Positions 508-59,829 of a stretch of 64,000 nucleotides of DNA are shown here, in pieces. The translations under genes were made by a program, and so were the position numbers. Location: NCBI RefSeq assembly GCF_900105125.1, contig NZ_LT629750.1, forward strand, positions 2,294,001-2,358,000. Direction: 5' to 3'. The notes beneath the pieces were generated by a model. That model made no database searches and was not told the origin of the DNA. It saw only the letters and a program-made list of their open reading frames with translations. The DNA comes from Bradyrhizobium canariense. GTDB taxonomy: Bacteria; Pseudomonadota; Alphaproteobacteria; Rhizobiales; Xanthobacteraceae. Each line of letters opens with the position of its first letter. The first letter of the stretch is position 1.

Positions 508-521
508 TTGACGCAAATCAA
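508..521 (+). promoter_or_regulatory. FixK-type box upstream of the DUF883-like gene
   Basis: TTGACGCAAATCAA matches the FixK/FNR consensus TTGA-N6-TCAA with both half-sites perfect. Its centre is 65 nt before the ATG at 580, and a CATAAA sequence near 541-546 sits about where a -10 element would be if the box is at -41.5. Confidence 0.65.
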
Positions 522-579
522 TGGCACCGCCGCACAGGCGCATAAAGCTCAACGAGCCACGCAAGGAGGATGAGGTGCA

Positions 580-855
580 ATGTTCGCGACAAGCAATCTG
601 GCAGACGAGTTGCACGCGCTCAAAAGCGACGTCTCGCGCCTTCTGAACACGACAGGCGACGGGATCTTCGATGCCTCCCGGAGCCGCGCCGAATCGCTGG
701 CGGATCAGATCAAGGCCGCCTTGAATGAACTGGGCCAGACGCTGGCTGAACAGGAAGACCACGTTGATCACCTGATATCGGATCGTCCGGTCACCACGCT
801 TGCTTCGGCATTCGCGCTCGGCGTCGTCGTCGGTTTCATGCTGCGGAGGTATTGA
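580..855 (+). CDS. DUF883/ElaB-like membrane-anchored protein
   Basis: A 91-residue protein with a long amphipathic, coiled-coil-prone N-terminal part (about residues 5-65) and a single C-terminal transmembrane helix ending in an RRY tail (about 70-91, containing AFALGVVVGFMLRR). This layout is that of the DUF883/ElaB/YgaM family, inner-membrane proteins that in enterobacteria associate with ribosomes and are stress induced. A strong AAGGAGG site precedes the start. It is followed after one base by the holin-like gene at 857, so the two are probably co-transcribed. A FixK-type box 65 nt upstream suggests induction under low oxygen (inference). Confidence 0.75.
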   Translation: MFATSNLADELHALKSDVSRLLNTTGDGIFDASRSRAESLADQIKAALNELGQTLAEQEDHVDHLISDRPVTTLASAFALGVVVGFMLRRY

Positions 856-856
856 G

Positions 857-1444
857 ATGAACACGGAGAACGTCGTCAAGAACCTGCGGGTGCTCTGGCG
901 GACCGACAGGATCATTGCAGATATCCGAATGCGGCACCTGCTGGTCGGCCTCGGATTAAGGGCGTTCGCTGCGCTGATCGCAGCCTTCGGTCTCCTGATG
1001 CTGGAGCTGTCGGCCTATTTTGCATTGGTGCAGATCTGGAACGCCATCACCGCGGCCGCCATCCTCGGCGCGGTCAACTTTGCGATTGCCGCTGCACTGT
1101 TCGTGATTGCCGCGAGGCCCCCGGCGACGCGCGAACTGGAGCTTGCAACCGAAATCCACGGCTCCTCGGTCGAGGCGCTGCAGCTTGAGGCGCGTGCGCT
1201 GCAATCGCAGCTATCCGGAGCGATGCACCATCCGCTGAGCGGCGTATTGCCGCTGCTGGCCGCTGATCGCGATCATCATCAAGAGCCTGAGGAAGCCGCA
1301 GCCGGCCAGCGCCCCTTCGGCAGAACAAGGTTGATAACGACGTGCCGGTCTCGCGTCCACGAGTTCAAGATCAATATCGTCGTGGTTCCGCGCTTTCCCG
1401 TTGAGCAAAACCGATGGAGACGATTTCAATGTTCCCCTATCTGA
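857..1444 (+). CDS. Phage-holin-superfamily-like membrane protein, probably frameshifted
   Basis: Starts one base after the preceding stop with GGAGG at 7 nt spacing. Residues 1-134 look like the small actinobacterial-holin/DUF1469-like proteins: a basic N-terminus, two hydrophobic helices (about residues 30-60 and 65-88) and a charged helical tail. From about base 1259 the open frame turns into low-quality sequence (AADRDHHQEPEE...). Shifting by one base gives PLIAIIIKSLRKP and a stop at 1332-1334, which looks like the natural C-terminal hydrophobic segment. I infer a one-base insertion or two-base deletion near 1250-1259, giving an intact ancestral gene of 857-1334. It could also be a sequencing error. 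As it stands the frame runs on into the next gene. Confidence 0.6.
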   Translation: MNTENVVKNLRVLWRTDRIIADIRMRHLLVGLGLRAFAALIAAFGLLMLELSAYFALVQIWNAITAAAILGAVNFAIAAALFVIAARPPATRELELATEIHGSSVEALQLEARALQSQLSGAMHHPLSGVLPLLAADRDHHQEPEEAAAGQRPFGRTRLITTCRSRVHEFKINIVVVPRFPVEQNRWRRFQCSPI

Positions 1445-1671
1445 AAGGTGCGTTGCTCTTCGCCCTCATTGCTGGCGTCGCCTACGCGGCGAGCGCCATT
1501 CTCGTTCCCGATGTCGTCGCTATCGCCGACACCGACCAGCCGCAACCACATCTCGAGCTCGCGTTCATGCTGAAGGCGATCGAACTGGCCGGCCTCGGCG
1601 GAGTGATTCTGGTGCTGATAAGCGCATTGCCGGTCTGGTTCAGGAACCGATCTGAAACGACGCTTCGATAG
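1429..1671 (+). CDS. Small two-helix membrane protein, hypothetical
   Basis: An 80-residue product with hydrophobic segments at about residues 5-27 and 45-67, ending in a basic tail. The start at 1429 is chosen over an in-frame ATG at 1414 because GGAGA lies 7 nt upstream of it. It is the third gene of the short run that begins at 580 and shares its orientation, so it probably belongs to the same transcript. I recognise no family; a small inner-membrane stress protein is a guess from context. Confidence 0.6.
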   Translation: MFPYLKGALLFALIAGVAYAASAILVPDVVAIADTDQPQPHLELAFMLKAIELAGLGGVILVLISALPVWFRNRSETTLR

Positions 1672-1703
1672 ATATTTGATCCGACCGTTCGGTCTCGATA
1701 TCT

Positions 1704-4397
1704 CTAGAGCATGAGCTTCACGACGCAAATATCGTGTTCGTCCGGATCTGCCTTCACTTCAAACCCAAGGTCCCGGCACATCGCAAGCATCACCGAGTTT
1801 TCGGCAAGCACATCCCCCGAGATGGTCTTGAGTCCTTCGGACCTGGCGTATTCGATGATCAACTGCATCAAGGTCCAGCCGAGCCCCCTGCCCTTGAGAT
1901 CCGATCTGAGCAGGATCGCGTATTCTGCGGTCTCATAGATCGAATCCGAGTGTATTCGCACCACGCCAACGATCTCGTTGGTGGCTTCGTCGAACGCGAC
2001 AAACGCCATCGCACGGGCATAGTCGAGCTGGGTCAAGCGGGCGATGAACGCGTGGCTGAATTCCTTCATCGACGCGAAGAACCGCAGCCGAAGGTCCTCG
2101 CTGGTGACCTGCCGCAAAAGCTCATGGATCAGCGGCTCATCCTCGGGGCGGATCGGACGTACAAACACTCGCCAGCCGTCCTTCACTTCGATGTGCCGCT
2201 GCCATTGCGACGGATAGGGTCGCACCGCGAAATTGGCGGGGCTTGAGCCCGCGAACTTTCGCTCGGCGCGCCCGATTGCGGCACGGGCGTCGACCGCGAG
2301 AACGCCGGTCTCATCCGCCAGCAAGGGATTGATGTCCAACTCGCGAATCTCTGGAATGTCCGCAGCCATTTGCGCCAGCTTGACCAGAACCATCGCCACG
2401 GCATCCGGCTTGACGGCGGGTACGTCCCGGTAAGCGCGCAGCAGGCGCGACACGCGGGTGCACCCGATCAGGTCGTGGGCGAGTCGAAGGTCCAGCGGCG
2501 GAAGCGCCAGCGCCTTGTCGTTGATAATCTCGGCCGCCGTACCGCCGCGGCCAAACACGATGACGGTGCCGAAGGTCGGATCGTCAGCGATACCCAGAAT
2601 GAGTTCGCGCGCCTTCGGCCGCACCACCATCGCCTGGACGATCACGCCGGATATCCGCGCCTCCGGGCGAAGCGCTTTTGCCCGCGCGACAATATCGGCC
2701 GTCGCCGCCCGCACGGCCTCTGCGCTGGTGAGATTAAGCACGACGCCGCCGACGTCTGATTTGTGAACGATGTCCCGCGACATAATCTTCAGCACGACAG
2801 TCACGCCTTGCGCGAGCAGCGCCTGGGCGTGGGTGACGGCTTGCTCGGCATCGGCGGCCGCAAACGTCGGCACCATCGCGATCCCATAGGCCTGAAGCAG
2901 CCGCTTGATCTCGATCGGGTCAAGCCAGTGGCGATCATCGGCGAGCGCCGCCGCAACGATCGCCCGAGCGGCCTCGACATCAGGCACAAACGACGTAGGC
3001 ATGGCCGGAGGCACCTGCGCCAGCGCCTCCACCACCTCCCGATGCCGCACCAGATGCAGAAAGCCCCGTACCGCATCATCCTCGGTGGCGTAGTTGGGAA
3101 TTCCGGCCGCGCTCAGCAAATCACCCATTTTCCGGTCCGCACCGATCCAGACCGCAAGCACCTGCTTGGCGGACTCCTGATGCTCCCGGCGATATTTCTC
3201 GACCACGCCGATCACGGCAGCCGCGATGTCGTCAGCGGCAACGATCGCGGTCTGAACGTTCATGACCAGGATGGCATCGTTGCCGGGATCAGCCAGCAAT
3301 ATCTCAAGCGCCGACGCATAACGCGCCGCATCGGCGTCGCCGACAATCTCCACCGGGTTTGACCTCGACCACGTCGGCGGCAATACCGCATCGAGCTTCT
3401 CTCGGATGACGCGGGTGATGTCAGCGGGAATTCCGCCCAGTTCGACAAGCCGATCGACCGCGAGCAGACCGATGCCGCCGCCATTGGTCAGGATCGCAAG
3501 CCGCTTTCCCGCAGGCGATGCGAGACGCCCCAACGTCTCGGCGCAGTCGAAAAGCTCGCGAAGATCCGATACCCGCAAGATGCCGGCACGCCTGAACGCT
3601 GCATCGTAGACCGCATCCGACCCGGCCAGAACGCCAATATCGGTCGCCGCGGCCTTCGCACCTGGCGCCATGCGGCCGGATTTGAGGACGACGACCGGCT
3701 TGATTCGAGCGGCGGCGCGCGCCGCGGACATGAACTTGCGAGCGTCCTTGATCGCCTCGACATAGAGCAGAATGGCCCGCGTTTTCGCGTCCAGCGCGAA
3801 GTAATCCAGCAAATCGGCAACATCAACGTCGAGCTGATCGCCAACAGAGACGATTCCTGAAAAGCCCACCGCGCGCTGCGCCGCCCAGTCGACCATACCG
3901 GCGGCGACCGCCTTTGACTGAGAGATCAGCGCGAGATTTCCAACACACGGCATGTGCGCGGAGAAACTCGCGTTAAGCGCGGCGCCAGGCATCATAATGC
4001 CGAGGCCATTGGGTCCGATCAGCCTCATGCCATATTTTTTCGCGGTATGCTCTGCTCGTTCCGCCAATGAACCCGCACCCTGGCCGAGCCCGGCGGTGAT
4101 GATCAAGACGCCCACCGCACCCAATCTTCCAGCGTCATCGACGATGCCTGCGACCGCCTTCGCTGGCGCAGTGATTACCACTAATTCCGGAACGAACGGC
4201 AGGTCGTCGAGGCTGCCAACCGCAGCCATTCCGTCGATCTCCGCATAATGCGAATTCACCAGCCCGAATTCGCCTCTGAATTTCGCCGCACGAATATTCC
4301 GGAGAATGGCCCGACCGACGGAGTTCGGCCGAGGGCTCGCGCCGACCAGCGCGACCGAGCGCGGCGAAAGCAAATTTTTCAGACGATAGGTCGACAT
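1704..4397 (-). CDS. ADP-forming acyl-CoA ligase-like / GNAT fusion (Pat-type protein acetyltransferase)
   Basis: An 897-residue protein. In order it has an N-terminal CoA-binding Rossmann domain (about 8-130, GASPRPNSVG), a succinyl-CoA-ligase-like domain (about 150-310), an ATP-grasp domain (about 490-710) and a GNAT acetyltransferase (about 740-897, acetyl-CoA loop RSDLKGRGLG). The NDP-forming acetate-CoA ligases phosphorylate a His in a SHTG motif; here that site reads TDIG (residues 252-255), so the His is missing. This is the pattern of the PatZ/Pat lysine acetyltransferases, in which the ligase part senses ligands and the GNAT part acetylates targets such as acetyl-CoA synthetase. A role in controlling acyl-CoA metabolism is family knowledge; the substrate is unknown. 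It is transcribed away from the gene at 4633. Confidence 0.88.
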   Translation of the reverse strand: MSTYRLKNLLSPRSVALVGASPRPNSVGRAILRNIRAAKFRGEFGLVNSHYAEIDGMAAVGSLDDLPFVPELVVITAPAKAVAGIVDDAGRLGAVGVLIITAGLGQGAGSLAERAEHTAKKYGMRLIGPNGLGIMMPGAALNASFSAHMPCVGNLALISQSKAVAAGMVDWAAQRAVGFSGIVSVGDQLDVDVADLLDYFALDAKTRAILLYVEAIKDARKFMSAARAAARIKPVVVLKSGRMAPGAKAAATDIGVLAGSDAVYDAAFRRAGILRVSDLRELFDCAETLGRLASPAGKRLAILTNGGGIGLLAVDRLVELGGIPADITRVIREKLDAVLPPTWSRSNPVEIVGDADAARYASALEILLADPGNDAILVMNVQTAIVAADDIAAAVIGVVEKYRREHQESAKQVLAVWIGADRKMGDLLSAAGIPNYATEDDAVRGFLHLVRHREVVEALAQVPPAMPTSFVPDVEAARAIVAAALADDRHWLDPIEIKRLLQAYGIAMVPTFAAADAEQAVTHAQALLAQGVTVVLKIMSRDIVHKSDVGGVVLNLTSAEAVRAATADIVARAKALRPEARISGVIVQAMVVRPKARELILGIADDPTFGTVIVFGRGGTAAEIINDKALALPPLDLRLAHDLIGCTRVSRLLRAYRDVPAVKPDAVAMVLVKLAQMAADIPEIRELDINPLLADETGVLAVDARAAIGRAERKFAGSSPANFAVRPYPSQWQRHIEVKDGWRVFVRPIRPEDEPLIHELLRQVTSEDLRLRFFASMKEFSHAFIARLTQLDYARAMAFVAFDEATNEIVGVVRIHSDSIYETAEYAILLRSDLKGRGLGWTLMQLIIEYARSEGLKTISGDVLAENSVMLAMCRDLGFEVKADPDEHDICVVKLML

Positions 4398-4561: not shown

Positions 4562-4575
4562 TTGAGACAGATCAA
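4562..4575 (+). promoter_or_regulatory. FixK-type box upstream of the DUF2892 and K+ channel genes
   Basis: TTGAGACAGATCAA has perfect TTGA-N6-TCAA half-sites. The centre lies 64.5 nt before the ATG at 4633, the same distance as at 508-521. It also lies 171 nt upstream of the divergent acetyltransferase gene, too far for a classical class II arrangement there. Confidence 0.65.
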
Positions 4576-4632: not shown

Positions 4633-4866
4633 ATGCCGAAAAACATAGGAATGATCGATCAGTACGTGCGGATCGTCTTGGGATTGGCGCTGGTTGCATT
4701 TGCGTTCCAGGACGGCCTATCCGTTCAGGGGTGGCATTGGGCCGGATTGACTGGATTCGTGCTGCTCCTGACCGCGTTCTTCAGGAGCTGTCCAGCTTAT
4801 AGCGTCCTCGGTATTTCGAGCCGCGCGGCTCACCGCCGGTCGGAAGCCGGCCGCTTCGAGATCTAG
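4633..4866 (+). CDS. DUF2892 (YgaP-like) membrane protein
   Basis: A 77-residue protein beginning MPKNIGMIDQYVRIVLG, the typical opening of DUF2892, with two hydrophobic helices (about 12-28 and 36-53) and an FRSCPAYSVLGI motif between the second helix and the tail. In other bacteria this domain is found alone or fused to a rhodanese domain. A GGAGG site lies 9 nt upstream of the start, so this ATG is preferred to earlier in-frame ones. It comes directly before the potassium channel gene and shares the FixK-type box. Precise function unknown. Confidence 0.8.
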   Translation: MPKNIGMIDQYVRIVLGLALVAFAFQDGLSVQGWHWAGLTGFVLLLTAFFRSCPAYSVLGISSRAAHRRSEAGRFEI

Positions 4867-4966
4867 ACAGGTAGCCTGCCCGTTGTCGATCGGGATGAAG
4901 CTTCTTTTTCCTGAAAGGCGGGTTCGCCCCGGCAGGCGCCTTCATCCCAAAGGAATGAACCAGCAG

Positions 4967-6253
4967 ATGTCCTCTGCGAAAGAAGCACGAAAGCCAAAAT
5001 CTCCGGCAGAAAAGGTGAAGGCTTTGCGCCATCGCCTCTATGAAATCATGGAGTACGGGCCGGTCGGCGACCGCACGAGCCGACTCGTGAATTGGTCGAT
5101 CATTCTCCTTATCGTCATCAGCCTTTTCGGTATCATCCTGGCATCGGTGCCGGACCTCAAGGCGAGATATGGGGCCGTATTCACAACAATCGAAAACATC
5201 GCTCTTGTCGTATTTTCTGTGGAATTCGGGATCCGGGTCTGGATCGCAGTCGAGCATGCGCCATTGCGTCATCTCGCGCCGATCCGGGCGCGAATGCTCT
5301 TCATCACCAGTATCGCGGGGTTGATAGATCTCGCGGCGGTATTGCCGTTCTGGCTGGCCTTTCTGATCACACCCGATCTCGAAATTCTGCTGGTCTTCCG
5401 GATAGCCCGTTTCCTCAAGCTGACACGCTACTCTCCCGGCATACGATCGCTGTATGACGCGCTCTACACCGAGCGCCGAGCGCTTGCCGGATGTTTCATT
5501 ATTCTCATGGGCATGACGATTTTCGCCGCGACAATAATGCATTCGATCGAAGGGACCATACAGCCCGATAAATTCGGCACCATACCCGACGCCATGTGGT
5601 GGGCCGTCGTTACGCTCGGTACGGTCGGCTACGGCGATATCATACCCGTCACCGTGCTCGGACGGATCGTGGCTGCTGCCACCATTTTTTGTGGTCTGGG
5701 CATGGTTGCACTGCCAATCGGCATCGTCGCCACGGCATTCTCGAATGAAATCCACCGCAGGGATTTTGTCGTTACCTGGGGACTCGTGGCACGCGTACCG
5801 CTTTTCAGTGAACTATCGGCGGCCGAAATCGCCGATATCATGACGTTGTTACGTGCCCAACAAACAGAAGGCGGCTCCATCATTGTCAAGCGCGGAGAGC
5901 CGGCTCACTCCATGTACCTGATTGCCGCGGGAGAGGTCGAGATCAGGCTCGCGCACAAGAAGATCCGGCTTGGCGCCGGTCATTTCTTCGGCGAGATCGC
6001 TGCCCTTCGCCGCACCCTGCGCTCAGCCACGGTAACCGCGACGAAGCCAACGAGCCTGCTTGTCCTCGATGCCGCTGACCTTGAAATTCTCATGGAGCGT
6101 AATCCCCAGATCGCTGCAAGAATTCGCAATGTGGCACGCCACCGGCTGGGAGAGGATGTTACGTCCGCCCGCGGGGACTTGTTGTCAAAAGAACTGGAAG
6201 ATGAGGCGATCCAGCACCCAGAACTGGACGAAGATTTTCACCGATCAACGTGA
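4967..6253 (+). CDS. Six-helix cyclic-nucleotide-gated K+ channel
   Basis: A 428-residue membrane protein from the chosen start: AAGGA lies about 8 nt before ATG 4967, while a TTG at 4883 and an ATG at 4955 are less convincing. It has an S1-S6 ion-channel domain (about residues 40-255), an S4-like stretch with several arginines, and the potassium filter TVGYGD (219-224). A cyclic nucleotide-binding domain follows (about 270-390) with the phosphate-binding cassette FGEIAALRRTLRSATV, including the Arg that contacts the cyclic nucleotide phosphate. The layout resembles the Mesorhizobium MlotiK1 channel. It is probably co-transcribed with the DUF2892 gene 100 nt upstream, under a FixK-type box. 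Role in membrane-potential control is inferred. Confidence 0.9.
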   Translation: MSSAKEARKPKSPAEKVKALRHRLYEIMEYGPVGDRTSRLVNWSIILLIVISLFGIILASVPDLKARYGAVFTTIENIALVVFSVEFGIRVWIAVEHAPLRHLAPIRARMLFITSIAGLIDLAAVLPFWLAFLITPDLEILLVFRIARFLKLTRYSPGIRSLYDALYTERRALAGCFIILMGMTIFAATIMHSIEGTIQPDKFGTIPDAMWWAVVTLGTVGYGDIIPVTVLGRIVAAATIFCGLGMVALPIGIVATAFSNEIHRRDFVVTWGLVARVPLFSELSAAEIADIMTLLRAQQTEGGSIIVKRGEPAHSMYLIAAGEVEIRLAHKKIRLGAGHFFGEIAALRRTLRSATVTATKPTSLLVLDAADLEILMERNPQIAARIRNVARHRLGEDVTSARGDLLSKELEDEAIQHPELDEDFHRST

Positions 6254-6514: not shown

Positions 6515-6883
6515 TCAGTTCTGCGGCCGGCTGCTGAGCAGGTTCGACGTGGTTTCGATCATCCGCTCGGCATGCTTGAGAATCCGCTCACAGTCGCGGC
6601 GAACAAAATCGATCTGGTGCTGGCCGCATTGCTCGCCGAGCGTCCTGATATCCTGAACAGAATGTGCGCCGGCCGTTTTTGAAGCGAATTCCGTGAACAA
6701 GCGTATCTCTGCCAGAGCACGATCGAACGCCTCATTACCGACGAAAATCGCCTCCTCCAGCATCATCTTCTGCGCGCCGAGTATAAGATGCAACGCGCGC
6801 TTGTTCGCCAGGGAAATTCGGCTTTCGGCATTCACCGGCGATTCTTTGGAAGCGATGGCGTCCGGCTCGGAAAGAGCTGTCAT
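6515..6883 (-). CDS. Phasin-like helical protein, hypothetical
   Basis: A 122-residue, mostly alpha-helical protein without membrane segments. The region about 25-115 (LANKRALHLILGAQKMMLEEAIFVGNEAF and following) has the amphipathic heptad pattern and size of phasin-2-type proteins, which coat polyhydroxyalkanoate granules, but I see no diagnostic motif. The start at 6883 is preferred because GAGGT precedes it by 6 nt. It diverges from the CBS-BON gene, with a FixK-type box (6976-6989) about 100 nt upstream. A granule or stress-associated role is only a suggestion. Confidence 0.55.
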   Translation of the reverse strand: MTALSEPDAIASKESPVNAESRISLANKRALHLILGAQKMMLEEAIFVGNEAFDRALAEIRLFTEFASKTAGAHSVQDIRTLGEQCGQHQIDFVRRDCERILKHAERMIETTSNLLSSRPQN

Positions 6884-6975
6884 GTCAGACCTCATTCTTA
6901 CATTCTGCTCGAATGATACGCCCTTACTTCTTTCTCGCATTGAGCTGAATCAATTCGATGAAACGGTTGCCCCAT

Positions 6976-6989
6976 TTGACTTGGGTCAA
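6976..6989 (+). promoter_or_regulatory. FixK-type box between the phasin-like and CBS-BON genes
   Basis: TTGACTTGGGTCAA is a perfect TTGA-N6-TCAA box whose arms extend to TTGAC/GTCAA. The centre is 72.5 nt before the ATG at 7055 and 99.5 nt from the divergent start at 6883, so it may serve either or both. Confidence 0.65.
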
Positions 6990-7054: not shown

Positions 7055-7783
7055 ATGCGCGCCCATCAGATCATGACCCGCCCTGTTATATCGGTTACAC
7101 CGGAGACCACGATCCTCGAGGCCGCGAACATCATGCTGCGGCGGCATGTCAGCGGTCTTCCGGTGGTCGATGGGACCGGCAAGCTCGTCGGCATCGTTTC
7201 GGAAGGCGATTTCATTCGGCGAAGCGAAATCGGCACACAGCGCAAGCGCAGCCGATGGCTCAAGTTCATTCTCGGCTCCGGCAAAGCAGCCCGCGATTTT
7301 GTTCACGAGCACGGCCGCAAGATCGCGGAGGTCATGACCACGGAACCGATTACCATCGACGAGGAAACGGAACTCGAGAAGATCGTGCAACTCATGGAGA
7401 AAAACAACGTCAAACGCCTGCCGGTAACACGCGGAGACAAGGTCGTCGGAATCGTATCGCGCGCCAACCTCCTACAGGCGGTCGCGAGCCTCGCCCGCGA
7501 GATCCCCGATCCAACCGCCGACGACGACCACATTCGCAACCGTGTCATCGATGCCCTCGAGAAGAACGACTGGTGTCCGTTCGGCCTCAGCGTCGTCGTG
7601 CGGGATGGTATCGTCCATCTGAACGGCATCATTACCGATGAACGCTCCCGGGAAGCTGCGATTGTCGGCACGGAGAACGTTGCCGGGGTAAAGAAGGTCC
7701 ACGACCATTTGTGCTGGGTCGATACCATGTCGGGGATGTATCTGAACTCTCCCGAAGACGACGACCTGGAAAAAGCGAGCTAA
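7055..7783 (+). CDS. CBS-pair and BON domain protein
   Basis: A 242-residue soluble protein. Two CBS domains form a Bateman module: about residues 1-60 (MRAHQIMTRPVISVTPETTI, then SGLPVVDGTGKLVGIVSEGD) and about 90-150 (VMTTEPITIDEETELEKIV, then RLPVTRGDKVVGIVSRANL). A BON domain follows (about 160-230). CBS pairs bind adenine nucleotides and act as energy sensors; BON domains are thought to contact membranes or phospholipids. An ACGGAGG-type ribosome site precedes the ATG. The gene lies 57 nt before the hypothetical gene at 7841 in the same orientation, and a FixK-type box lies upstream. The partner it regulates is not known. Confidence 0.85.
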   Translation: MRAHQIMTRPVISVTPETTILEAANIMLRRHVSGLPVVDGTGKLVGIVSEGDFIRRSEIGTQRKRSRWLKFILGSGKAARDFVHEHGRKIAEVMTTEPITIDEETELEKIVQLMEKNNVKRLPVTRGDKVVGIVSRANLLQAVASLAREIPDPTADDDHIRNRVIDALEKNDWCPFGLSVVVRDGIVHLNGIITDERSREAAIVGTENVAGVKKVHDHLCWVDTMSGMYLNSPEDDDLEKAS

Positions 7784-19362: not shown

Positions 19363-22115
19363 GCGGGAGCCCGGTCGCCCGGCTCAACGGCCTGACACAG
19401 ACATACGGCAAGGTCTGCGCGCTTGATCACGTCACGGTCGACATTCCATCGGACTGCATGGTCGGTCTGATCGGCCCTGACGGGGTCGGAAAGTCGACGC
19501 TGCTCGGAATCGTCGCCGGCGCCCGTCAACTTCAGTCAGGTCAGGCCATTGTCCTGGATGGTGACATATCCAGCAGCACGCATCGCACGTCGGTTTGTTC
19601 GCGCATCGCCTATATGCCGCAGGGGCTCGGCAAGAACCTTTATCCCGATCTCAGCGTGCGGGAGAATATCGAGTTCTTTGCGCGTTTGTTCGGGTTGTCG
19701 CATCTCGAGCAGAAGTGGCGAATTACCGAGTTGCTCGACAGCACTTCGCTGACGGAATTTGCCGATCGTCCGGCAAAGAAGCTGTCCGGCGGCATGCGCC
19801 AGAAGCTCGGCCTATGCTGTTCGCTGATTCACGATCCGGATCTTCTGATTCTGGATGAACCGACAACCGGCGTGGACCCGCTGTCCCGCCGTCAGTTCTG
19901 GGAATTGATCGATCGCATTCGTTCGCGTCGCCCCGGCATGAGCGTCATTGTCGCGACGGCCTATATGGAGGAGGCAGAGCAGTTCGACTGGCTGCTCGCA
20001 TTGAACGGCGGAAAAGTTCTTGCGACCGGCTCGCCGACGGAGATCAATGCGGCAACGAAGACCACGAACATAGAGGACGCGTTCATCGCCCTGCAACCCG
20101 AGCGGCAGCGCGACGGTCACCGCAAGCTCGTGGTCCCGCCGCGCGAGCACTCCTCATCCGAACCGATTATCGTGGCGCGCAATCTATCCTGTCGTTTCGG
20201 CGACTTCACGGCCGTGGACGGCGTGAATTTTTCCATCGAGCAGGGCGAGATATTCGGATTTGTCGGTTCCAACGGTTCGGGCAAGACAACGACAATGAAG
20301 ATGCTGACCGGCCTCCTGCCAGCCAGCGAGGGCGAGGCGCTGGTTTTCGGCAGGCCGCTCGATGCCAATGATCTCGATGCGCGCCGGCGCGTCGGCTACA
20401 TGTCTCAATCCTTCTCGCTCTATGGCGAATTGACGGTTCGGCAGAACCTGATCCTTCACGCCCGGCTGTTTCATCTCGATCCGGAAGTGGCGAGACAACG
20501 CATTGCCGATTTGACCGGAAAATTCGACCTCATCCCCTATCTCGACGAACGGGCTGCCGAGTTGCCGCTGGGAATCCGCCAGCGCGTTTCGCTGGCGGTC
20601 GCCATCGTGCATGGGCCGGATCTCTTGATCCTGGACGAGCCGACGTCGGGCGTCGACCCCCTCGCCCGCGACCAGTTCTGGGAGCTGCTGATCGATCTGT
20701 CGCGCAATCAGCGCGTGACGATTTTCGTATCGACCCATTTCATGAGTGAGGCCGCCCGCTGCGACCGCCTTTCCCTGATGCATGCCGGGCGCGTGCTCGC
20801 GACGGACACGCCGGCGGCGCTGGTCAAGGCGCGTCACGCTGCGACGCTTGAAGACGCCTTCATCAGTTACCTTGAAGCAGAGAGCGCCGACGGCAATCTC
20901 GCACCCAAGGGATCGCAGCCAATCGTCTCCGTGGCAGCCGTGAACGATGGCGAAAAACGCAAGGCCGCGCGGCAGGCACGCAGATCGGTGTTCTTTAGCG
21001 CACAGCGCCTGTTCGCGTGCACCGTCCGCGAAGGCCTGGAGTTGATCCGGGATCCCATCAGGCTGACATTTGCGCTGTTCGGAACGACCTTGCTCATGAT
21101 CGTGTTCGGCTTCGGCGTCTCGACCGACGTCAACAATCTGACGTTTGCCGTTCTCGATCGCGATCAAACCCACGAGAGCCGCGCCTATCTTGAGGAGGTA
21201 CGCGGATCGCCCTATTTCGTCGAAAAGCCGCCGCTTGCGGATTATGCCGATCTCGACAAGCGTCTGCAGAGCGGAGAGATTACCGCCAGCATCGAAATCC
21301 CTCCAGGGTTCGGCGAGAACATCAAGCGCGGACGGCCTGCCTGGGCGTCGGCCTGGATCGACGGAGCCATGCCGTTCCGTGCCGAGACGATCCGCGGCTA
21401 TCTGCAGGGAATGCACCAGCTCTATCTGACCGATCCGGTCATCAAAACCACCGTGCAACAGGCCGGTCCGCCGTCCGATATCGAAACCCGGTACAAATAC
21501 AACCAGGATTTCGACAGCGTCTACGCCATGGTCCCGTCGACCATTGCGCTGATGCTGGCGCTGTTTCCCGCGATCCTGATGGCTCTGGCGGTTGTCCGCG
21601 AGAAGGAGCTCGGTTCGATCACCAATCTCTATGTCACGCCGGTTACGCGGCTGGAATTCCTGGTCGGGAAGCAGCTTCCCTACGTCGCCGTTGCGCTGAT
21701 CAATTTTGCGATCCTGTTCACCATGGCGCTGCTGCTGTTTCAGGTGCCGCTCAAAGGCAGCTTTCCGATGCTGTTGTCCGGTGTCATCGTCTATGTGTTT
21801 GCGACCACCGGCTACGGGATGTTGATTTCGGCGTTCTGCAGCACCCAGATCGCGGCCTTATTCGGGACCGCGATCCTCACCATTCTTCCCGCCACGCAGT
21901 TCGCGGGCATGATGACGCCGGTATCGTCGTTGTCCGGCTTTGCGCGCGTCCTGGGGCGATGCTTCCCGATGTCCTATTTCCTTCCAATCAGCGTCGGCAC
22001 CTTCACCAAGGGACTGGGCTTTCAGGATATCGGCACCAACCTGCTGAGCCTGGCGGCGTTCGTTCCAATTCTGACAGGCCTGAGCCTGTTTCTGGTGCGC
22101 AAACAAGAGCGCTGA
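19359..22115 (+). CDS. RbbA-like ABC transporter: two ATPase domains fused to ABC-2 permease
   Basis: A 918-residue fusion. The first nucleotide-binding domain (about 1-235) has Walker A GPDGVGKST, signature LSGGMRQKL and Walker B LLILDEP. The second (about 265-500) has GSNGSGKTTT and LLILDEPTSGVDPL, with the signature weakened to LPLGIRQRV. The rest (about 540-918) is an ABC-2 permease with a large periplasmic loop and six hydrophobic segments. E. coli RbbA (YhiH) has this order. It forms an operon with the HlyD protein (4-bp overlap) and the second permease at 22132. Export of lipids, sterol-like compounds or toxic metabolites is possible; no direct evidence. Confidence 0.87.
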   Translation: MSGSPVARLNGLTQTYGKVCALDHVTVDIPSDCMVGLIGPDGVGKSTLLGIVAGARQLQSGQAIVLDGDISSSTHRTSVCSRIAYMPQGLGKNLYPDLSVRENIEFFARLFGLSHLEQKWRITELLDSTSLTEFADRPAKKLSGGMRQKLGLCCSLIHDPDLLILDEPTTGVDPLSRRQFWELIDRIRSRRPGMSVIVATAYMEEAEQFDWLLALNGGKVLATGSPTEINAATKTTNIEDAFIALQPERQRDGHRKLVVPPREHSSSEPIIVARNLSCRFGDFTAVDGVNFSIEQGEIFGFVGSNGSGKTTTMKMLTGLLPASEGEALVFGRPLDANDLDARRRVGYMSQSFSLYGELTVRQNLILHARLFHLDPEVARQRIADLTGKFDLIPYLDERAAELPLGIRQRVSLAVAIVHGPDLLILDEPTSGVDPLARDQFWELLIDLSRNQRVTIFVSTHFMSEAARCDRLSLMHAGRVLATDTPAALVKARHAATLEDAFISYLEAESADGNLAPKGSQPIVSVAAVNDGEKRKAARQARRSVFFSAQRLFACTVREGLELIRDPIRLTFALFGTTLLMIVFGFGVSTDVNNLTFAVLDRDQTHESRAYLEEVRGSPYFVEKPPLADYADLDKRLQSGEITASIEIPPGFGENIKRGRPAWASAWIDGAMPFRAETIRGYLQGMHQLYLTDPVIKTTVQQAGPPSDIETRYKYNQDFDSVYAMVPSTIALMLALFPAILMALAVVREKELGSITNLYVTPVTRLEFLVGKQLPYVAVALINFAILFTMALLLFQVPLKGSFPMLLSGVIVYVFATTGYGMLISAFCSTQIAALFGTAILTILPATQFAGMMTPVSSLSGFARVLGRCFPMSYFLPISVGTFTKGLGFQDIGTNLLSLAAFVPILTGLSLFLVRKQER

Positions 22116-22131
22116 AAACCGGGCAGGATGC

Positions 22132-23256
22132 ATGCGAAAACTTTCGAACATCTTTTGGCTCGGAACAAAGGAGCTTCGCAGCTTCATGAGCGACTTTGTC
22201 CTGCTGGGCCTTGTCGTTTATTCGTTCTCGCTTGCCGTGATCAGCCAGGCGGAGAGCTATTCGCAGGAGCTGCATAACGCTTCCATCGCGTTCGCCGACG
22301 AGGACCACTCGGAGATTTCGCATCGCATGGCGGCCGCGTTCCTGCCGCCCTATTTCAAGCCGGTGGTCCAGATTCAACAGCGCGATATCGACCGCCTGAT
22401 GAATGCCGGCCAGTACACGTTCGTCGTCGACGTGCCTCCGAACTTCGAACGTGATCTTCTTGCCGGCCGTCAGCCCGGCCTGCAGATCAACGTCGATGCG
22501 ACCGCGATGGTACAGGCAGGATTGGGATCCGGATATGCCCAGCAGATCGTCAGCACCGAAATCAGCGACTTCCTCTCGCGCTCCGAAACGATCGTCCAGC
22601 CTCCCGTCAATCTCGCGATCCGGGTCGCGTTCAATCCCAACGTGACGACGTCCTGGTTCTCGAGCGTGATGGGCATCATCAACAGCGTCAGCATGCTGGC
22701 TATCGTGTTGGCGGGCGCGGCGATCGTGCGCGAGCGCGAGCGTGGTACCATGGACCACCTCCTGGTGATGCCGCTCACGCCCTTTGAGATCGCGATGTCG
22801 AAGATCTGGGCGAATGGACTCGTGATCGCCGTGGCGGTGGCGTTTTCGCTCTATCTGGTCGTCCGGCTGACGCTCGGCATTCCGATCGCCGGCTCTATCC
22901 CGCTATTTCTGGTCGGCACGGTGCTCTATCTGTTCTTTGCAACCTCTGTCGGCGTCTTTCTAGGCACGGTGGCAAGATCGATGCCGCAGCTCGGCCTGCT
23001 CTACATGCTGGTCGCCGTTCCGATGAATCAATTGTCGGGCAGCTCCACCCCGCTGGAGAGCATGCCGCCGCTGCTGGCGAAGATCATGGAGGCGTCGCCG
23101 TCAACCCACTTCGTGTCGTTTGCACAGTCCATCCTCTATCGGGGCGCTGGATTTGGAGTCGTGTGGCCGCAATTCCTCGCCGTCACACTGATCGGTGCGC
23201 TGTTTCTCGGATTTGCTGTGCTGCGCTTCCGTTCCGTCGTCGCCCAGGCCATGTAA
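22132..23256 (+). CDS. ABC-2 type permease (YhhJ-like)
   Basis: A 374-residue permease with an N-terminal helix (about 20-40), a large extracytoplasmic domain (about 45-175) and five C-terminal helices carrying the ABC-2 motif ERERGTMDHLLVMPLTPFEIAMSKIWANG. It begins 16 nt after the RbbA-like gene and should pair with that protein's permease half to form the pore, as YhhJ does. Third gene of the exporter operon. Confidence 0.85.
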   Translation: MRKLSNIFWLGTKELRSFMSDFVLLGLVVYSFSLAVISQAESYSQELHNASIAFADEDHSEISHRMAAAFLPPYFKPVVQIQQRDIDRLMNAGQYTFVVDVPPNFERDLLAGRQPGLQINVDATAMVQAGLGSGYAQQIVSTEISDFLSRSETIVQPPVNLAIRVAFNPNVTTSWFSSVMGIINSVSMLAIVLAGAAIVRERERGTMDHLLVMPLTPFEIAMSKIWANGLVIAVAVAFSLYLVVRLTLGIPIAGSIPLFLVGTVLYLFFATSVGVFLGTVARSMPQLGLLYMLVAVPMNQLSGSSTPLESMPPLLAKIMEASPSTHFVSFAQSILYRGAGFGVVWPQFLAVTLIGALFLGFAVLRFRSVVAQAM

Positions 23257-23348: not shown

Positions 23349-25760
23349 CTAGCCACCGTCACTTGCCCCTGTTCCGTACGGCCATTTCCAGTTGCTGATC
23401 TCGGGCATGTCCTCGCCGTGCGCGCAGATGTAGCGGCGATGTTCCTGCAAGCGGTCGAGCAACACCTGCTTCAGATGCGCCGCTGCGGTGGCAAGGCCCG
23501 GAACGCGATCGATCACCTCGATTGCGAGGTGAAAGCGGTCAAGCTCATTGAGCACAACCATGTCGAAGGGAGTAGTCGTCGTGCCTTCCTCGGCGAAACC
23601 CCGCACATGCATTCCGTCGTGATTGGCCCGGCTGTAAGTGAGGCGGTGGATCAGATGCGGATAGCCGTGATACGCGAAGATGACCGGCTTGTCGCAGGTG
23701 AACATGGCATCGAATTCCTTGTCGCCGATGCCGTGCGGATGCTGCTCTTTCGGCTGCAGCGTCATGAGGTCGACCACGTTGACGACGCGGATCCTGAGAT
23801 CGGGCAGCTCGCGGCGAAGCAGATCGACGGCGGCAAGCGTCTCGAGTGTCGGCACGTCGCCGGCGCATGCCATCACGACATCCGGTTCGAGCCCGCCGAC
23901 TTCGGTCCCGGCCCAAGGCCAGATTCCGATACCGGCGTCGCAATGCGTCGCCGCCTGCCCCATTGTCAGCCATTGCGGCGCCGGCTGCTTGCCCGCAACG
24001 ATCACGTTGATGCGATCATAGGTGCGCAGACAGTGATCGGCGACCCACAGCAGCGTATTGGCGTCGGGGGGAAAATAGAGCCGAACGATATCGGCCTTTT
24101 TGTTGGCAACGAGATCCACAAATCCAGGGTCCTGATGGCTGAAGCCATTGTGGTCCTGGCGCCAGACGTGGGACGTCAGCAGGTAGTTCAGGGACGCGAT
24201 CGGCCGCCGCCACGGCAGTGCGCGCGAGACCTTCAACCATTTGGCATGCTGGTTGAACATGGAATCGACGATGTGGACGAAGGCTTCGTAACAGGAGAAA
24301 AAGCCATGACGGCCGGTCAGGAGGTAACCTTCCAGCCAGCCCTGGCAAAGATGTTCGCTCAGCACTTCCATCACGCGGCCATCCTGCGCCAGATGGACGT
24401 CATAGGGTTCAATGCCCTCCATCCAGACGCGATCGGTGGCTTCGAACACCGCATCGAGCCGATTCGAGGCTGTCTCGTCCGGTCCCATGATCCGGAAGTT
24501 GCGCGCTTTGGCATTCAGCCGCATCACATCGCGCAGGAACTCGCCCAGCACGCGGGTAGCCTCCGCCTCCGGTGCACCGGCGTGCGGCACCTTCACGGCA
24601 TAGTCGCGGTAGTCCGGCAGGATGAGTTCGCGCTTCAGCAGACCGCCATTGGCGTGCGGGTTGGCGCCCATACGTCGCGCGCCGCGCGGCGGAAGCGCCT
24701 GTAATTCGTCGCGAAGCTGTCCCGCGCTGTCGAACAGTGCTTCCGGCTGGTAGCTGCGCATCCATTGCTCGAGCAATTTGAGATGATCGGGATTGCTGCG
24801 CGGGTCGGCAATCGGGACCTGATGGGCGCGCCAGAATCCTTCGACGCGAAGGCCATCGACCTCCTTCGGTCCAGTCCAGCCCTTGGGGCTTCGCAGCACG
24901 ATCATCGGCCATTTCGGCCGCTGCACCGAACCGCGCCCGTCGCGGGCTTCATTCTGAATGGTCTGGATTCGCTCGATCGCCGATTCCAGCGCTGCTGCCA
25001 TCAACCGATGCATCACCGGCGGATCGTCGCCCTCGACGAAAATCGGTTCGTGACCATAACCGAGAAAGAGGTGGCGGATCTCATCATCCGTCATCCGTCC
25101 TAGAACCGTGGGATTGGCAATCTTGTATCCGTTGAGATGCAGGATCGGCAGTACCGCGCCGTCGCGCGCCGGGTTGAGGAATTTGTTGGAATGCCAGGAG
25201 GCGGCGAGCGGGCCGGTTTCTGCTTCGCCATCGCCCACCACGCAGGCGACCAGAAGGTCAGGATTGTCGAAGGCCGCGCCATAGGCGTGCACCAGGGCAT
25301 AGCCGAGTTCGCCGCCTTCGTGGATCGAGCCGGGCGTCTCCGGCGCCGCGTGGCTCGGAATTCCGCCGGGAAACGAGAACTGCCTGAACAGCTTGCGCAT
25401 TCCGTCGGCGTCGCGACCGATATCGGGATAAATCTCGCTGTAGGTTCCTTCGAGATAGGTGTTCGCCACCATGCCCGGCCCGCCATGGCCCGGACCGCAG
25501 ATATAAATCATATCGAGATCGCGCTGCTTGATGAGCCTGTTCAGATGGGCATAGACGAAGTTGAGGCCGGGCGTGGTACCCCAATGGCCCAGCAGGCGCG
25601 GCTTGATGTGCTCAGCCCGCAGCGGCTCCCGCAACAGCGCGTTGTCGAGCAGATAAATCTGCCCGACCGATAGATAGTTCGCGGCGCGCCAATAGCGATC
25701 GAGCAAAACCAGATGGTCATCGCTCAATGCGGAGTTTCCGGCTGGCAAAGCTTGTTCCAT
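23349..25760 (-). CDS. xfp: Phosphoketolase (xylulose-5-P/fructose-6-P)
   Basis: An 803-residue thiamine-diphosphate enzyme, the usual length. Characteristic stretches are [38 protein letters not shown] and [21 protein letters not shown]. It splits xylulose-5-P (and often fructose-6-P) with phosphate into acetyl-P and glyceraldehyde-3-P (or erythrose-4-P). Here it could draw on Calvin or pentose phosphate sugars to give acetyl-P and ATP when respiration is limited. Transcribed alone, with a FixK-type box 73 nt upstream of the start. Confidence 0.95.
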
Positions 25761-25826: not shown

Positions 25827-25840
25827 TTGATCCAGAGCAA
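25827..25840 (-). promoter_or_regulatory. FixK-type box (one mismatch) upstream of xfp
   Basis: TTGATCCAGAGCAA matches TTGA-N6-TCAA except for G in place of T in the second half-site. It is centred 73.5 nt before the start at 25760. Confidence 0.5.
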
Positions 25841-26506: not shown

Positions 26507-27334
26507 TTAGTGAGACAGGAAAGAACACCGAGATGACTCGGTCGTGAGGTGGCGCGTGACACCGCCGAGTATCCACTCGCGGAGTCGCGAGTGACCATAG
26601 GCGCCTGCAATCACCATTCCGGCGCCGACATTCGCGGCAATCCAGTCGAGTTGCCCGGTGACTTCTGCCGTCGCTTCCGGAACGACAGTGCTCGCTACAA
26701 TACCATGGCGCAGGAGCCAAGCCGCGACGTCCTCGACATGCGACAGCGCATCCGCGCGATAGGCGCCTTCCTCCGGAATTTCAGCGATCGCGACCTCTTT
26801 GGCCACGGCTAGGATCGGCAGCGCATCGAATATGGCCCTGCGCGCTTCTTTCACATCCTTCCAGGCCACCAATACGCTTCTCAGGTCGAGCCATTGGACA
26901 GTGGACGGGACAACGATGAGCGGTCGGCCCGCCCGCATCAGGAGATCGTTCGGATCGGCGGCGACACTAAGATCGACGACGGCTTCCTCCCGCGCTCCGA
27001 CCACAAGAACGTCCGCCGCCCGGGCTTGCTGGACCACGTAATTCGACGGCAAGGCCTGGGCGGAACGCCATTCGACGGATTTTACGCGCTTTTGAACCGA
27101 ACTGCGAAATTCCGCCTCGAGCTCCGACAGCCTTTTCCGGATCGCCTCGGCTTCCTGATCCAGAAGTTTTTGTGCATATTCGCCCTCAGCGAAATACAAT
27201 GGCGCCCTCAGGTCTGAGGCTGCAATGCCGACGATCCGTGCCTCGAAGCGTTCGGCAATATCCCCGGCCACCGCGAGGCAGGCATCATTCGGCTGGTCTA
27301 GCGCCAAACTGACCATGACGGTTTTGTAATCCAT
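26507..27334 (-). CDS. Tandem universal stress protein
   Basis: A 275-residue protein of two Usp domains (about 1-140 and 150-275). The C-terminal one has the nucleotide motif GAYGHSRLREWILGGVTRHL; the first has DVLVVGAREE but lacks the full glycine motif. It is followed 26 nt downstream by the CBS gene, so both likely form one operon. A near-consensus FixK box lies about 98 nt upstream. Confidence 0.88.
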   Translation of the reverse strand: MDYKTVMVSLALDQPNDACLAVAGDIAERFEARIVGIAASDLRAPLYFAEGEYAQKLLDQEAEAIRKRLSELEAEFRSSVQKRVKSVEWRSAQALPSNYVVQQARAADVLVVGAREEAVVDLSVAADPNDLLMRAGRPLIVVPSTVQWLDLRSVLVAWKDVKEARRAIFDALPILAVAKEVAIAEIPEEGAYRADALSHVEDVAAWLLRHGIVASTVVPEATAEVTGQLDWIAANVGAGMVIAGAYGHSRLREWILGGVTRHLTTESSRCSFLSH

Positions 27335-27425
27335 CTCCCGCTCCGCTTCTGTGATCGCTGAAATGTCACTGGGCGAAATGCCCGCAATGCTGCTATGCAG
27401 TTTAAGCGGCGATTCCAGATCAAAC

Positions 27426-27439
27426 CTGACCTAGATCAA
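27426..27439 (-). promoter_or_regulatory. FixK-type box (one mismatch) between the stress protein and fixL
   Basis: CTGACCTAGATCAA (reverse strand TTGATCTAGGTCAG) differs from consensus by one base. It is centred 98.5 nt from the minus-strand start at 27334 and 176 nt before fixL, so the stress gene is the more likely target. Confidence 0.5.
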
Positions 27440-27608
27440 CACGAGGCGCTCGCTTTGCGGATTGCCGGAGTTTGCGCGCACGAAATTCGTGTGGACCGTC
27501 TTTTATTTCAATAGGATAAGAGCTACGGATAATTTCGTCACACCGCACTCCTCGCTCTTGTCCGGATCTGCGGCCCAAAGCATTCGGGGAGCCCAAAAAG
27601 GGCGGATC

Positions 27609-29150
27609 ATGATAGACGTCGACCGCCCGTTTCGCAGTCAGGAACCGTTCGACCAAAACGTGCGCAGCGGGATCGAGGGATCAGGGGTCGGCACCTGGGA
27701 TCTTGAATTTTCGACCCAGGAGCTGAGTTGGTCAAATACCACGCGAAAGCTGTTCGGCGTCTCACCGGAGCAATCGGTCAACTACGATCTCTTTCTTTCC
27801 CTGCTTGATTTGCAGGATCGGGATCGCACCGCCAAGGCTGTGCAGAAGTCCATCGAAACCGGCTGCAATTTCGATATCCAGTACAGGATACACCGGCATT
27901 CGGATGCAGGTCACTGGGTACGCACGCTTGGGGCCATCGTGGACGACGCGGATGGCAAGCCTGCGCGGCTCAGCGGCATCGTGCTCGACATCGACAATGA
28001 GAAGCGCCTCGAGGACGCATTGAGGACGCGCGAAAGACACTTTCGTTCGATCCTCGACACCGTGCCCGATGCGATGATCGTTATTGACGAACATGGCATC
28101 ATGCAGTTTTTCAGCAGCGCTGCCGAACGCCAGTTTGGCTATGCCGAACCCGAAGCGATTGGAAAGAACATCAGTTTGCTGATGCCGGAGCCCGACCGTA
28201 GTCGTCATGATGGCTATCTTGCCCGCTATTTAAAAACCGGCGAGCGGCGTATCATCGGCATCGGCCGCATCGTTACCGGCATGCGCAAGGACGGCACAAC
28301 ATTTCCCATGTACCTCACCATCGGCGAGATGCAATCGGGCGGACGGCCCTACTTTACAGGTTTCGTCCGCGATCTTACCGAGCAGCAGCAGACCCAGGCA
28401 AGATTGCAAGAACTTCAATCCGAGCTGGTTCACGTGTCACGTCTGAGCGCGATGGGAGAGATGGCTTCAGCGCTTGCCCATGAACTTAATCAACCGCTTT
28501 CGGCCATCAGCAACTACATGAAGGGGTCACGCCGGCTCTTGGCTGCCAGCACGGACGCCAACGCGCCGAAGATCGAAGCGGCGCTCGATCGTGCTGCAGA
28601 GCAAGCCATCCGCGCCGGTGAGATCATCAGACGATTGCGCAACTTTGTTTCGCGAGAAGCGTCCGAGAAACGCGTCGAAAGTCTTTCGAAGCTGATAGAA
28701 GAAGCCGGAGCACTCGGTCTCACCGGCGCCCGCGAACAAGGCGTGATATTGCGGTTTAACCTCGATTCATCGTGTGACCTGGTCTTGGCCGATCGGGTTC
28801 AGATCCAGCAGGTTCTCGTCAATCTTTTTCGCAATGCGCTGGAAGCAATGGCTACTTCGACCCATAGAGAGCTTATCGCCTCGAACGCCAAGGTCGTCGA
28901 TGATATGATCGAAATCGCGGTTTCGGATACCGGGCACGGGTTCGGTGACAGCACCCAGGCAAATCTGTTTCAACCCTTCTTCACGACAAAGGAAACAGGC
29001 ATGGGCGTCGGCCTTTCGATCAGTCGAACGATCATCGAAACCCATGGCGGCCGGATGTGGGCCGAGACAAACGACGCAGGTGGCGCGACGTTTCGCTTCA
29101 CGTTACCTGCTGCGTCTGCCAAGGAAATGACGCATGTCGCAGAGCGGTAA
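27609..29150 (+). CDS. fixL: Oxygen-sensing histidine kinase FixL
   Basis: A 513-residue protein with the chosen start (AGGGCGG upstream). Layout: PAS-A (about 20-135), heme PAS-B (about 140-260), then HisKA and HATPase. With this start the heme-ligand His in [10 protein letters not shown] is residue 200 and the distal Arg in GIGRIVTG is 220, the numbers known for Bradyrhizobium FixL. The phospho-accepting His in [13 protein letters not shown] is 291, and the catalytic glycines [10 protein letters not shown] are near the end. Oxygen on the heme inhibits kinase activity; without it FixL phosphorylates FixJ. No membrane helices, so soluble. It overlaps fixJ by 17 bp. Confidence 0.96.
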
Positions 29151-29751
29151 GGTTTATGTCATCGATGATGATGCGGCGATGCGCGACTCTCTCGATTTTC
29201 TGCTGGGTTCCGCCGGGTTCCACGTGCAGCTTTTTGATTCCGCGCAGACTTTCCTCGACGAACTTCCGCGGATGGAGACGGGTTGCGTTGTCACGGACAT
29301 TCGCATGCCCGGAATCGATGGCATTGAGCTGCTACGTCGGCTGAACTCAGGTGTCCGCAGGCTTCCCGTCATCGTCATGACGGGGCATGGCGACGTTCCT
29401 CTCGCCGTTGAAGCCATGAAACTGGGCGCGCTCGATTTCCTTGAAAAGCCGTTCGAGGACGAGCGGCTCGTGAGCATGATCGAAACGGCGCTTTCGCAGA
29501 CCGATAACGGTTCAAAAAACGAGGCGATTACGGCTGACATGGCCTCGCGGGTGGCTTCCCTTACCCAGCGGGAACACCAGGTGATGCTGGGCCTCGTGAC
29601 CGGTCAATCGAATAAGGTGATCGCCAAGGAGTACGATATCAGCCCACGCACCGTCGAAGTCTACCGTGCGAATGTCATGACCAAGATGCAGGCGGGTAAC
29701 CTTTCGGAACTCGTCAGATTTGCGATCCGGGCCGGGATGCTCAAGGATTGA
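29134..29751 (+). CDS. fixJ: Response regulator FixJ
   Basis: A 205-residue regulator with a receiver domain (1-125; acidic pocket D11-D13, phosphorylation site Asp55 in VVTDIRMPG, Lys in FLEKPF) and a LuxR-type DNA-binding domain (about 140-200, [43 protein letters not shown]). It is activated by FixL at low oxygen and should switch on fixK, whose promoter lies 650 bp downstream. Its stop codon lies inside a FixK-type box. Confidence 0.96.
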
Positions 29752-29761
29752 GCTAAATCAA
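29748..29761 (+). promoter_or_regulatory. FixK-type box overlapping the fixJ stop codon
   Basis: TTGAGCTAAATCAA has perfect half-sites. The TGA of fixJ is its bases 2-4. A class II site here would give a transcript start near 29796, suiting the receiver gene start at 29858 but not an alternative at 29795. Confidence 0.6.

Positions 29762-57235: not shown

Positions 57236-59829
<2,594 letters not shown>

Follow-up and report, generated by a model that had tools for sequence, protein, structure and literature searches.

Does a single stretch of the Bradyrhizobium canariense genome hold an oxygen sensor, its regulators and a large share of the genes that they control? In this work we examined a window of 64,000 nucleotides (nt), the whole stretch of DNA analysed (positions 2294001-2358000 of the single-contig genome of 7.84 Mb), for which an original prediction made from the letters alone had proposed that fixL, fixJ and fixK lie together with many targets marked by FixK boxes of the form TTGA-N6-TCAA. 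We consider it very probable that the window contains the FixLJ-FixK cascade for low oxygen and that much of its regulon is gathered around the cascade genes. Coordinates are those of the window, with the strand given as + or -. FixL (27609..29150, +) is a haem-PAS sensor kinase with Pfam PAS, HisKA and HATPase domains; we used its ATG start, a TTG at 27462 being also possible. Its haem PAS domain aligns with solved FixL chains over all 130 residues and shares with them the RSRHD stretch, the histidine of which we take to be the haem ligand. The gene directly after fixL encodes FixJ (29134..29751, +), with a receiver and a GerE/LuxR DNA-binding domain. FixK (30409..31104, +), of the FixK2 type, aligns end to end with the solved FixK2 chain 4i2o (357 bits) and has a cysteine where 4i2o, presumably the C183S structure, has a serine (the C183 place). 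It shows the CRP/FNR fold, a reactive cysteine near the helix-turn-helix and no N-terminal CxxC cluster.

Are the boxes around these genes more than a product of chance? The perfect form occurs ten times in the window (at 10, 508, 4562, 6940, 6976, 8901, 12969, 16589, 18176 and 29748), always within the first 30 kb. Nine of these sites are fully intergenic and the other, 29748, shares four bases with the end of fixJ. All ten sites listed in the original prediction exist where it placed them, eight of them perfect and two (25827 and 27426) with one mismatch each, while the perfect sites 10 and 6940 had been overlooked. The prediction had also put their density above chance, and this was borne out: block shuffles (n = 20) left 0.5 perfect sites in a window on average, and the remaining genome holds 1.0 per 64 kb. 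Across the whole genome we counted 137 perfect sites as against 24 matches for a reversed-pattern control. With one mismatch allowed, the window has 37 sites and its shuffled versions 18.8 on average, so the signal resides in the perfect and near-perfect sites. A scan with a position weight matrix trained on 15 island boxes, the check that had been suggested for this window, set 13 sites clearly at the top, all of them between genes of the first 30 kb, a region with only 3.6 kb of intergenic DNA; eleven of the 13 are training boxes and the independent finds are only 8954 and 27426. The published FixK2 consensus is the wider TTG(A/C)-N6-(T/G)CAA (PMC5582078). It matches the window 21 times, 13 times in intergenic DNA (the ten perfect sites, 8954, 25827 and 33420) and eight times in coding DNA (610, 15175, 17087, 30856, 46468, 48469, 53813 and 60806, with 2.3 expected from shuffles); the coding matches are probably due to chance. 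The island boxes fit this consensus in promoter regions, with 27426 deviating by one base. The statement that no boxes lie between 30 and 64 kb thus held for the perfect form, of which the motif search found none there, and failed for the wider consensus, which is matched at 33420 before hemN.

Could composition alone have gathered these sites? Some lone boxes elsewhere are surely chance, as the 24 reversed-control matches in the genome indicate. The GC content of the window, however, stays between 0.56 and 0.64 throughout, ten sites were found where 0.5 were expected, and in related loci from the best 80 of 198 relatives (1528 kb; most carry the label Bradyrhizobium, some Rhodopseudomonas, Afipia or a different name) there are 337 perfect boxes against four reversed-control matches. 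The shuffles and the relatives led us to reject chance, an explanation that the footprinting in related loci already refutes and to which we give practically no weight. The boxes are genuine, and far more frequent than chance would allow.

Which genes do they face? Box 10..23 (-) points to an MlaE-type permease, whose TTG start (-48 in window coordinates) lies beyond the window edge. Box 508..521 (+) precedes a 91-amino-acid (aa) DUF883-like membrane protein and its Phage_holin_3_6-like partner (580..1444, +); the Pfam match to DUF883_C is far under the cut-off and that to Phage_holin_3_6 just under it. Box 4562..4575 (+) lies before a unit headed by a YgaP-like transmembrane protein of 77 aa (4633..4866, +), followed by a cyclic-nucleotide-binding-domain (CNBD) ion channel of K+ channel type (4895..6253, +). 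The channel had been named as a target, and it does belong to a boxed unit, as second gene behind the YgaP-like gene; as a direct first target we rejected it, since its presumed ATG lies 326.5 nt from box 4562. The same box stands 171.5 nt from an acyl-CoA synthetase (ADP-forming type) fused to GNAT (1704..4397, -). Box 6940..6953 (-) has as its target a 122-aa protein without Pfam match (orf122; 6515..6883, -), box 6976..6989 (+) a CBS-CBS-BON protein (7055..7783, +) and box 8901..8914 (-) a 100-aa protein with a hydrophobic N-terminus (8541..8843, -). A box reading TTGATCCAGCGCAA (8954..8967, +), identical in its letters to the FixK2 box of B. diazoefficiens nosR (PMC5582078), is found 95.5 nt before the genes of a cytochrome c'-like 156-aa protein (match below the cut-off) and a P-type cation ATPase (9056..11945, +). 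A universal stress protein (Usp), encoded by usp1 (12027..12863, -), follows box 12969..12982 (-) at 112.5 nt. Behind box 16589..16602 (-) come a Zn alcohol dehydrogenase (adh), an APH/AAA_33 kinase and a CHAD protein (13049..16529, -), whose genes probably form an operon because they overlap. Box 18176..18189 (+) precedes an HlyD adaptor (TTG start), an RbbA-type fused ABC protein and an ABC-2 permease (18247..23256, +). Phosphoketolase (23349..25760, -) lies behind TTGATCCAGAGCAA (25827..25840, -), a match to TTG(A/C)-N6-(T/G)CAA, and a second Usp gene, usp2 (26507..27334, -; Usp match just under the cut-off), behind the imperfect box 27426..27439 (-), which reads TTGATCTAGGTCAG toward it. 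Finally, a HemN-type radical SAM enzyme (31976..33382, -; approximate start) is preceded by the FixK2-type variant box TTGCGCTCGCGCAA (33420..33433, -). Its letters are those of the B. diazoefficiens bsr7087 box, and the box given for hemN2 (bll7086) in the same source is TTGCGCGAGCGCAA (PMC9104804 Table 2).

In the related loci we counted orthologues of at least 40% identity, took their full upstream sequence and asked whether a perfect box lay no more than 300 nt upstream. Such a box stands before mlaE in 35/35 and the receiver gene between fixJ and fixK in 23/23 orthologues, before the DUF883-like gene in 12/13, orf122 in 24/29, adh in 45/58, usp1 in 29/43 and the CBS-BON gene in 36/55. For the YgaP-like gene it is perfect in five of six and relaxed in all six. 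Inner genes lacked it: fixJ (0/24), mlaD (0/33), chad (0/17), the second gene of the DUF883 unit (0/14) and, directly upstream, the K+ channel (0/6). The reversed control over all genes gave two matches. The boxes therefore recur before the leading genes of units and not before inner operon genes. The box at 27426, with at most one mismatch, is found before 20 of 20 usp2 orthologues, compared with 6.8% of random stretches.

Several results weigh against this reading. The usp2 box takes the perfect form in only 2/21 orthologues, a weak conservation, and boxes are found before 8/49 acyl-CoA synthetase, 16/80 kinase, 1/31 fixK, 1/4 phosphoketolase (within 300 nt) and 0/5 hemN orthologues. At 40% identity the 80 loci contain no orthologue of hlyD or of the RbbA-type and ABC-2 genes; a relaxed-consensus box accompanies HlyD in 6/13 other loci, in two of the six at or past the extrapolated start. 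FixK control in B. canariense, including binding, activation and feedback, is something we infer from sequence and from data on relatives, and the same boxes could also serve an FNR-type paralogue located in the island. Among the boxed HlyD loci are those of L088 and L089, the two closest of the other genomes. Of 61 sampled family genomes, 25 give strong matches to the RbbA-type protein (the best, outside its own genome, at 72%), and the 100-aa protein has an orthologue in none of the 80 loci. We also observed a second RbbA-type copy in the same genome (3397618-3400350, 71% identical).

Is there a fixed distance from box to start codon, as the near-constant spacing of the original prediction implied? 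The distances given there were reproduced within about 1 nt: 65.5 nt for box 508, 64.5 for 4562, 8901 and 18176, 66.5 for 16589, 72.5 for 6976 and 73.5 for 25827. The boxes added to that list gave 64.5 (10) and 63.5 nt (6940), and the fixN box upstream of the window 65.5. The range of 63.5-66.5 nt nevertheless holds for only half of the box-target pairs (8/16, or 8/18 with 8954 and 33420 included), six others lying at 58.5 (twice), 92.5, 98.5, 103.5 and 112.5 nt. Under uniform placement such clustering has a probability of at most 5e-6 (200,000 draws), a figure to be taken as a guide since the choice of start codons, from reading frame and ribosome-binding sequence, was ours. Among the relatives, 49 of 286 pairs fall at 63.5-66.5 nt, which speaks against a strict rule, and 122 of 286 at 57.5-71.5 nt, a broad peak beside which some genes cluster near 90-104; adh is tight, with 28 of 49 pairs at 63.5-66.5. 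A strict rule is thus weakened both by the island, where half of the pairs obey it, and by the relatives, with their broad peak and gene-specific second peaks. For B. diazoefficiens nosR a transcription start is reported 40.5 nt from the FixK2 box, with a second one at 67.5 (PMC5582078), and B. japonicum leaders are described as typically 20-40 nt, so that distances of about 60-80 nt to the start codon are to be expected. The 63.5-66.5 nt spacing is consistent with a transcription start 40.5 nt from the box and a leader of about 24 nt; it is ordinary FixK promoter geometry with a common leader length, and not a general constant.

The island runs past the edge of the window. It extends a further 8.4 kb upstream, where it takes in fixGHI, fixNOP and the gene of an FNR-type regulator. 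In window coordinates, perfect boxes stand at -8427 before fixG, at -4852 before fixN, at -4046 before a 47-codon reading frame and at -3188 before the FNR-type gene; fixH, fixI, fixO and fixP, the other genes sought, were likewise recognised. The 38.2 kb from -8427 to 29748 contain 14 perfect boxes where 0.6 are expected (P about 5e-15, before correction for about 205 windows). A PhaC gene located 17 kb upstream of the island also has a perfect box, 110.5 nt in front of it (L001:4752-4765), and in B. diazoefficiens phaC2 belongs to the FixK2 targets (PMC9104804). The prediction had placed FixLJK in this region, correctly; to this we add a second CRP/FNR regulator within the island. This paralogue (247 aa, window -4017 to -3274) adjoins the fixN genes and has an N-terminal cysteine cluster, CxxC-x7-C (CSLCDVRSLGIC), which places it in the FNR/FixK1/AadR type; it is possibly FixK1 or AadR.

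Could the boxes be used mainly by this paralogue and not by FixK? It is located in the island, it carries the cysteine cluster, its DNA-binding region resembles that of FixK2, and FNR and FixK consensus sites overlap. On the other hand, a box stands before its own gene in 17/17 overlap-resolved orthologues (17/26 with other CRP/FNR proteins above 40% identity), so that it looks like a FixK target itself. Moreover, in a B. diazoefficiens fixK2 mutant similar targets fall by up to 93-fold: Table 2 of PMC9104804 lists bsr6066 at -92.6, the CBS gene blr6074 at -90.9 and phosphoketolase bll2518 at -10.0, and the ABC/HlyD unit bll7988-7986 ranges from -33.1 to -5.6. We therefore regard predominant use by the paralogue as improbable. 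A different CRP/FNR protein, for example of the NnrR type, might also own the boxes and make the link to FixLJK one of mere neighbourhood. Such genomes can hold many of these proteins (16 in B. diazoefficiens; PMC9104804), but the published fixK2 dependence of similar genes and the predicted Bradyrhizobiaceae FixK regulon (PMC2908626) name the same functions, and we think this very unlikely indeed. Control by FixK remains the preferred explanation. The interpretation in the original prediction was supported in part; its central claim, that sensor, regulator and many targets sit together, was well supported: FixL and FixK match solved chains, the boxes recur before orthologues, and similar genes are reported as FixK2-dependent or raised at low oxygen in B. 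diazoefficiens, bll6060-6074 genes, blr2761 and blr2762 having positive low-oxygen fold changes (PMC6515984). These matches to B. diazoefficiens genes are argued from product names and gene order.

One perfect box lies over the fixJ stop codon (29748..29761, +), 103.5 nt before a receiver-only gene (29858..30226, +). A perfect box follows the gene in 23 of 26 fixJ orthologues. The TGA stop falls inside its first half-site in 22 of the 26, and one orthologue has the box 8 bases past the stop. The three box-less copies (L011, L012 and L014) read on into receiver- or fixK-like sequence and for this reason look rearranged. When 17 fixJ junctions are aligned, the box stands out as the principal block of conservation past the end of fixJ. 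The receiver keeps the usual acidic residues, its receiver-only architecture, as in FixT, was confirmed, and its conserved perfect box makes it a candidate for induction via FixLJ/FixK. In B. diazoefficiens bll2758 is listed with positive low-oxygen fold changes (PMC6515984) and its product is named a candidate regulator (PMC4999443), and the receiver's R. palustris counterpart, RPA4249, is called a FixT homologue in a figure legend (PMC13327599). FixT inhibits FixL autophosphorylation in Sinorhizobium meliloti and Caulobacter crescentus (PMC7078487). An Fe-S FixT was considered and rejected, the receiver family being without a conserved four-cysteine motif, as is S. meliloti FixT. Perhaps, in this family, the stop-codon box drives the FixT-like receiver gene lying between fixJ and fixK and thereby supplies the cascade with its own brake on FixL, and perhaps the fused island is a module for survival at low oxygen, complete in itself and working independently of nitrogen fixation and photosynthesis; we put this forward tentatively, with somewhat more doubt than belief. 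Between the receiver gene and fixK the motif search found no FixK box. A conserved block in this gap (30316..30351, +) possibly contains one or more FixJ sites. It resembles the FixJ motif of R. palustris, GTACGTAG (PMC13327599), in part only.

How might the system work? As oxygen falls, haem-bound FixL would phosphorylate FixJ, which would switch on fixK, probably through the conserved block upstream of it. FixK would then bind TTGA-N6-TCAA as a class II activator, with transcription starting about 40 nt downstream, and short leaders would bring the start codon to about 65 nt from the box. The predicted targets include high-affinity respiration (fixNOQP and fixGHIS types), oxygen-free haem synthesis (hemN), fermentation-type carbon flow (phosphoketolase and alcohol dehydrogenase) and stress or dormancy functions (Usp, CBS-BON, kinase-CHAD, ion transport, exporter and lipid transport), while the FixT-like receiver, behind its FixK box, may damp FixL. 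We take the Usp, CBS, P-type ATPase and APH/AAA kinase genes (7055-16529) to resemble the mycobacterial DosR dormancy gene set.

A second dense cluster of boxes was noticed elsewhere in the genome, at 3235504-3286004 (L004-L006), with 17 perfect boxes in 50.5 kb, 14 of them outside gene calls; the cluster is richer in TTGAC/GTCAA than the first island. Its neighbours include two Usp genes, baeRF, an ETR1_N kinase with response regulators, an MMPL protein, a CNBD-pyridine-nucleotide-oxidoreductase protein and DnaK- and small heat-shock-protein-like genes, the last named from sequence starts only. About 25 kb from fixK, the window also contains a Calvin-cycle cluster (55867-63825) with both RuBisCO subunits (large and small), aldolase, transketolase, PRK, FBPase and an AAA protein that its position marks as of CbbX type, and with zero perfect boxes. 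A 1894-aa fusion of protein kinase, AAA, GAF, PAS and histidine kinase lies at 43410-49094.

The gene families, the boxes, their spacing and their conservation in relatives describe a real, dense and conserved FixK island, largely an ordinary one, whose low-oxygen system is known from relatives. It leaves the known picture of FixK control unchanged. Its value is that one DNA stretch shows the sensor, the regulators and about fifteen target promoters side by side, with many boxes recurring across Bradyrhizobium, Rhodopseudomonas and Afipia relatives. No full NifH was found in the genome (three partial matches, covering at most 45 of 271 positions and one of them just above the cut-off, were read as other P-loop ATPases), nor was a photosynthetic reaction-centre gene, which points to low-oxygen survival as the basic job of the set. 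What is new is mainly the fused, dense island in a genome without detected nitrogenase reductase or reaction centre, and the FixK box that covers the fixJ stop, a feature kept by 22 of 26 relatives, before a FixT-like receiver gene. We found no paper on either among the open-licence literature, which is not proof of absence.

The regulon itself is already in print. Dufour et al. (PMC2908626) predicted an alphaproteobacterial FixK regulon in 2010, best defined in the Bradyrhizobiaceae, with FixJ, FixL, ABC transporter parts, HlyD, phosphoketolase, CBS, kinase, Zn alcohol dehydrogenase and cytochrome c, and similar genes depend on FixK2 in B. diazoefficiens (PMC9104804). Several targets that had been called less usual, the HlyD and ABC parts among them, were thus on record. 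That work gives a list of orthologue groups, and its passages on the regulon contain no account of physical clustering or box-to-start spacing. On pSymA of S. meliloti, fixI, fixG, fixP, fixO, fixN, fixK, fixJ and fixL lie together with boxes and a Usp-like gene, with fewer stress genes recognised (the queries being window proteins) and with 6 perfect boxes in 45 kb as against 14 in 38 kb in B. canariense. Seven of nine Rhodopseudomonas-labelled loci hold an FNR-type gene, mla, acyl-CoA synthetase, kinase, Usp, CBS-BON, fixL, fixJ, receiver and fixK in about 20 kb (in R. palustris aadR is Rpal_4713 and fixK Rpal_4729); the RbbA-type operon, opgC and phosphoketolase do not show up in these loci. 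R. palustris has photosynthesis genes under FixK (PMC13327599), whereas in the B. canariense genome we found no reaction-centre gene. In the sample of 61 family genomes, to which our own belongs, the kinase gene is present in 44 and a strong FixL match in 41. Both occur in 36, and in at least 10 of these, our own again included, they lie within 30 kb on one contig (many assemblies are fragmented); in the single same-genus genome sampled the two are more than 600 kb apart. A further close parallel is the FixLJ-FixK2-FixK1 cascade of B. diazoefficiens USDA110/110spc4, which has the same sensor, regulators and box and shares many targets of similar kind: Usp blr2761, CBS blr2762, fix blr2764-2769, bll6060-blr6074, phosphoketolase, hemN2 and the ABC/HlyD unit. 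The pair bsr6066-blr6067 corresponds by product and order (PMC9104804 Table 2) to our 580..1444 pair, while the gene order of bll7988-7986 differs from that of our HlyD unit, the likeness there being by product names only. To judge from their locus tags, the B. diazoefficiens genes lie in separate blocks (about 2758-2769, 6060-6074 and others), whereas in B. canariense they form one island.

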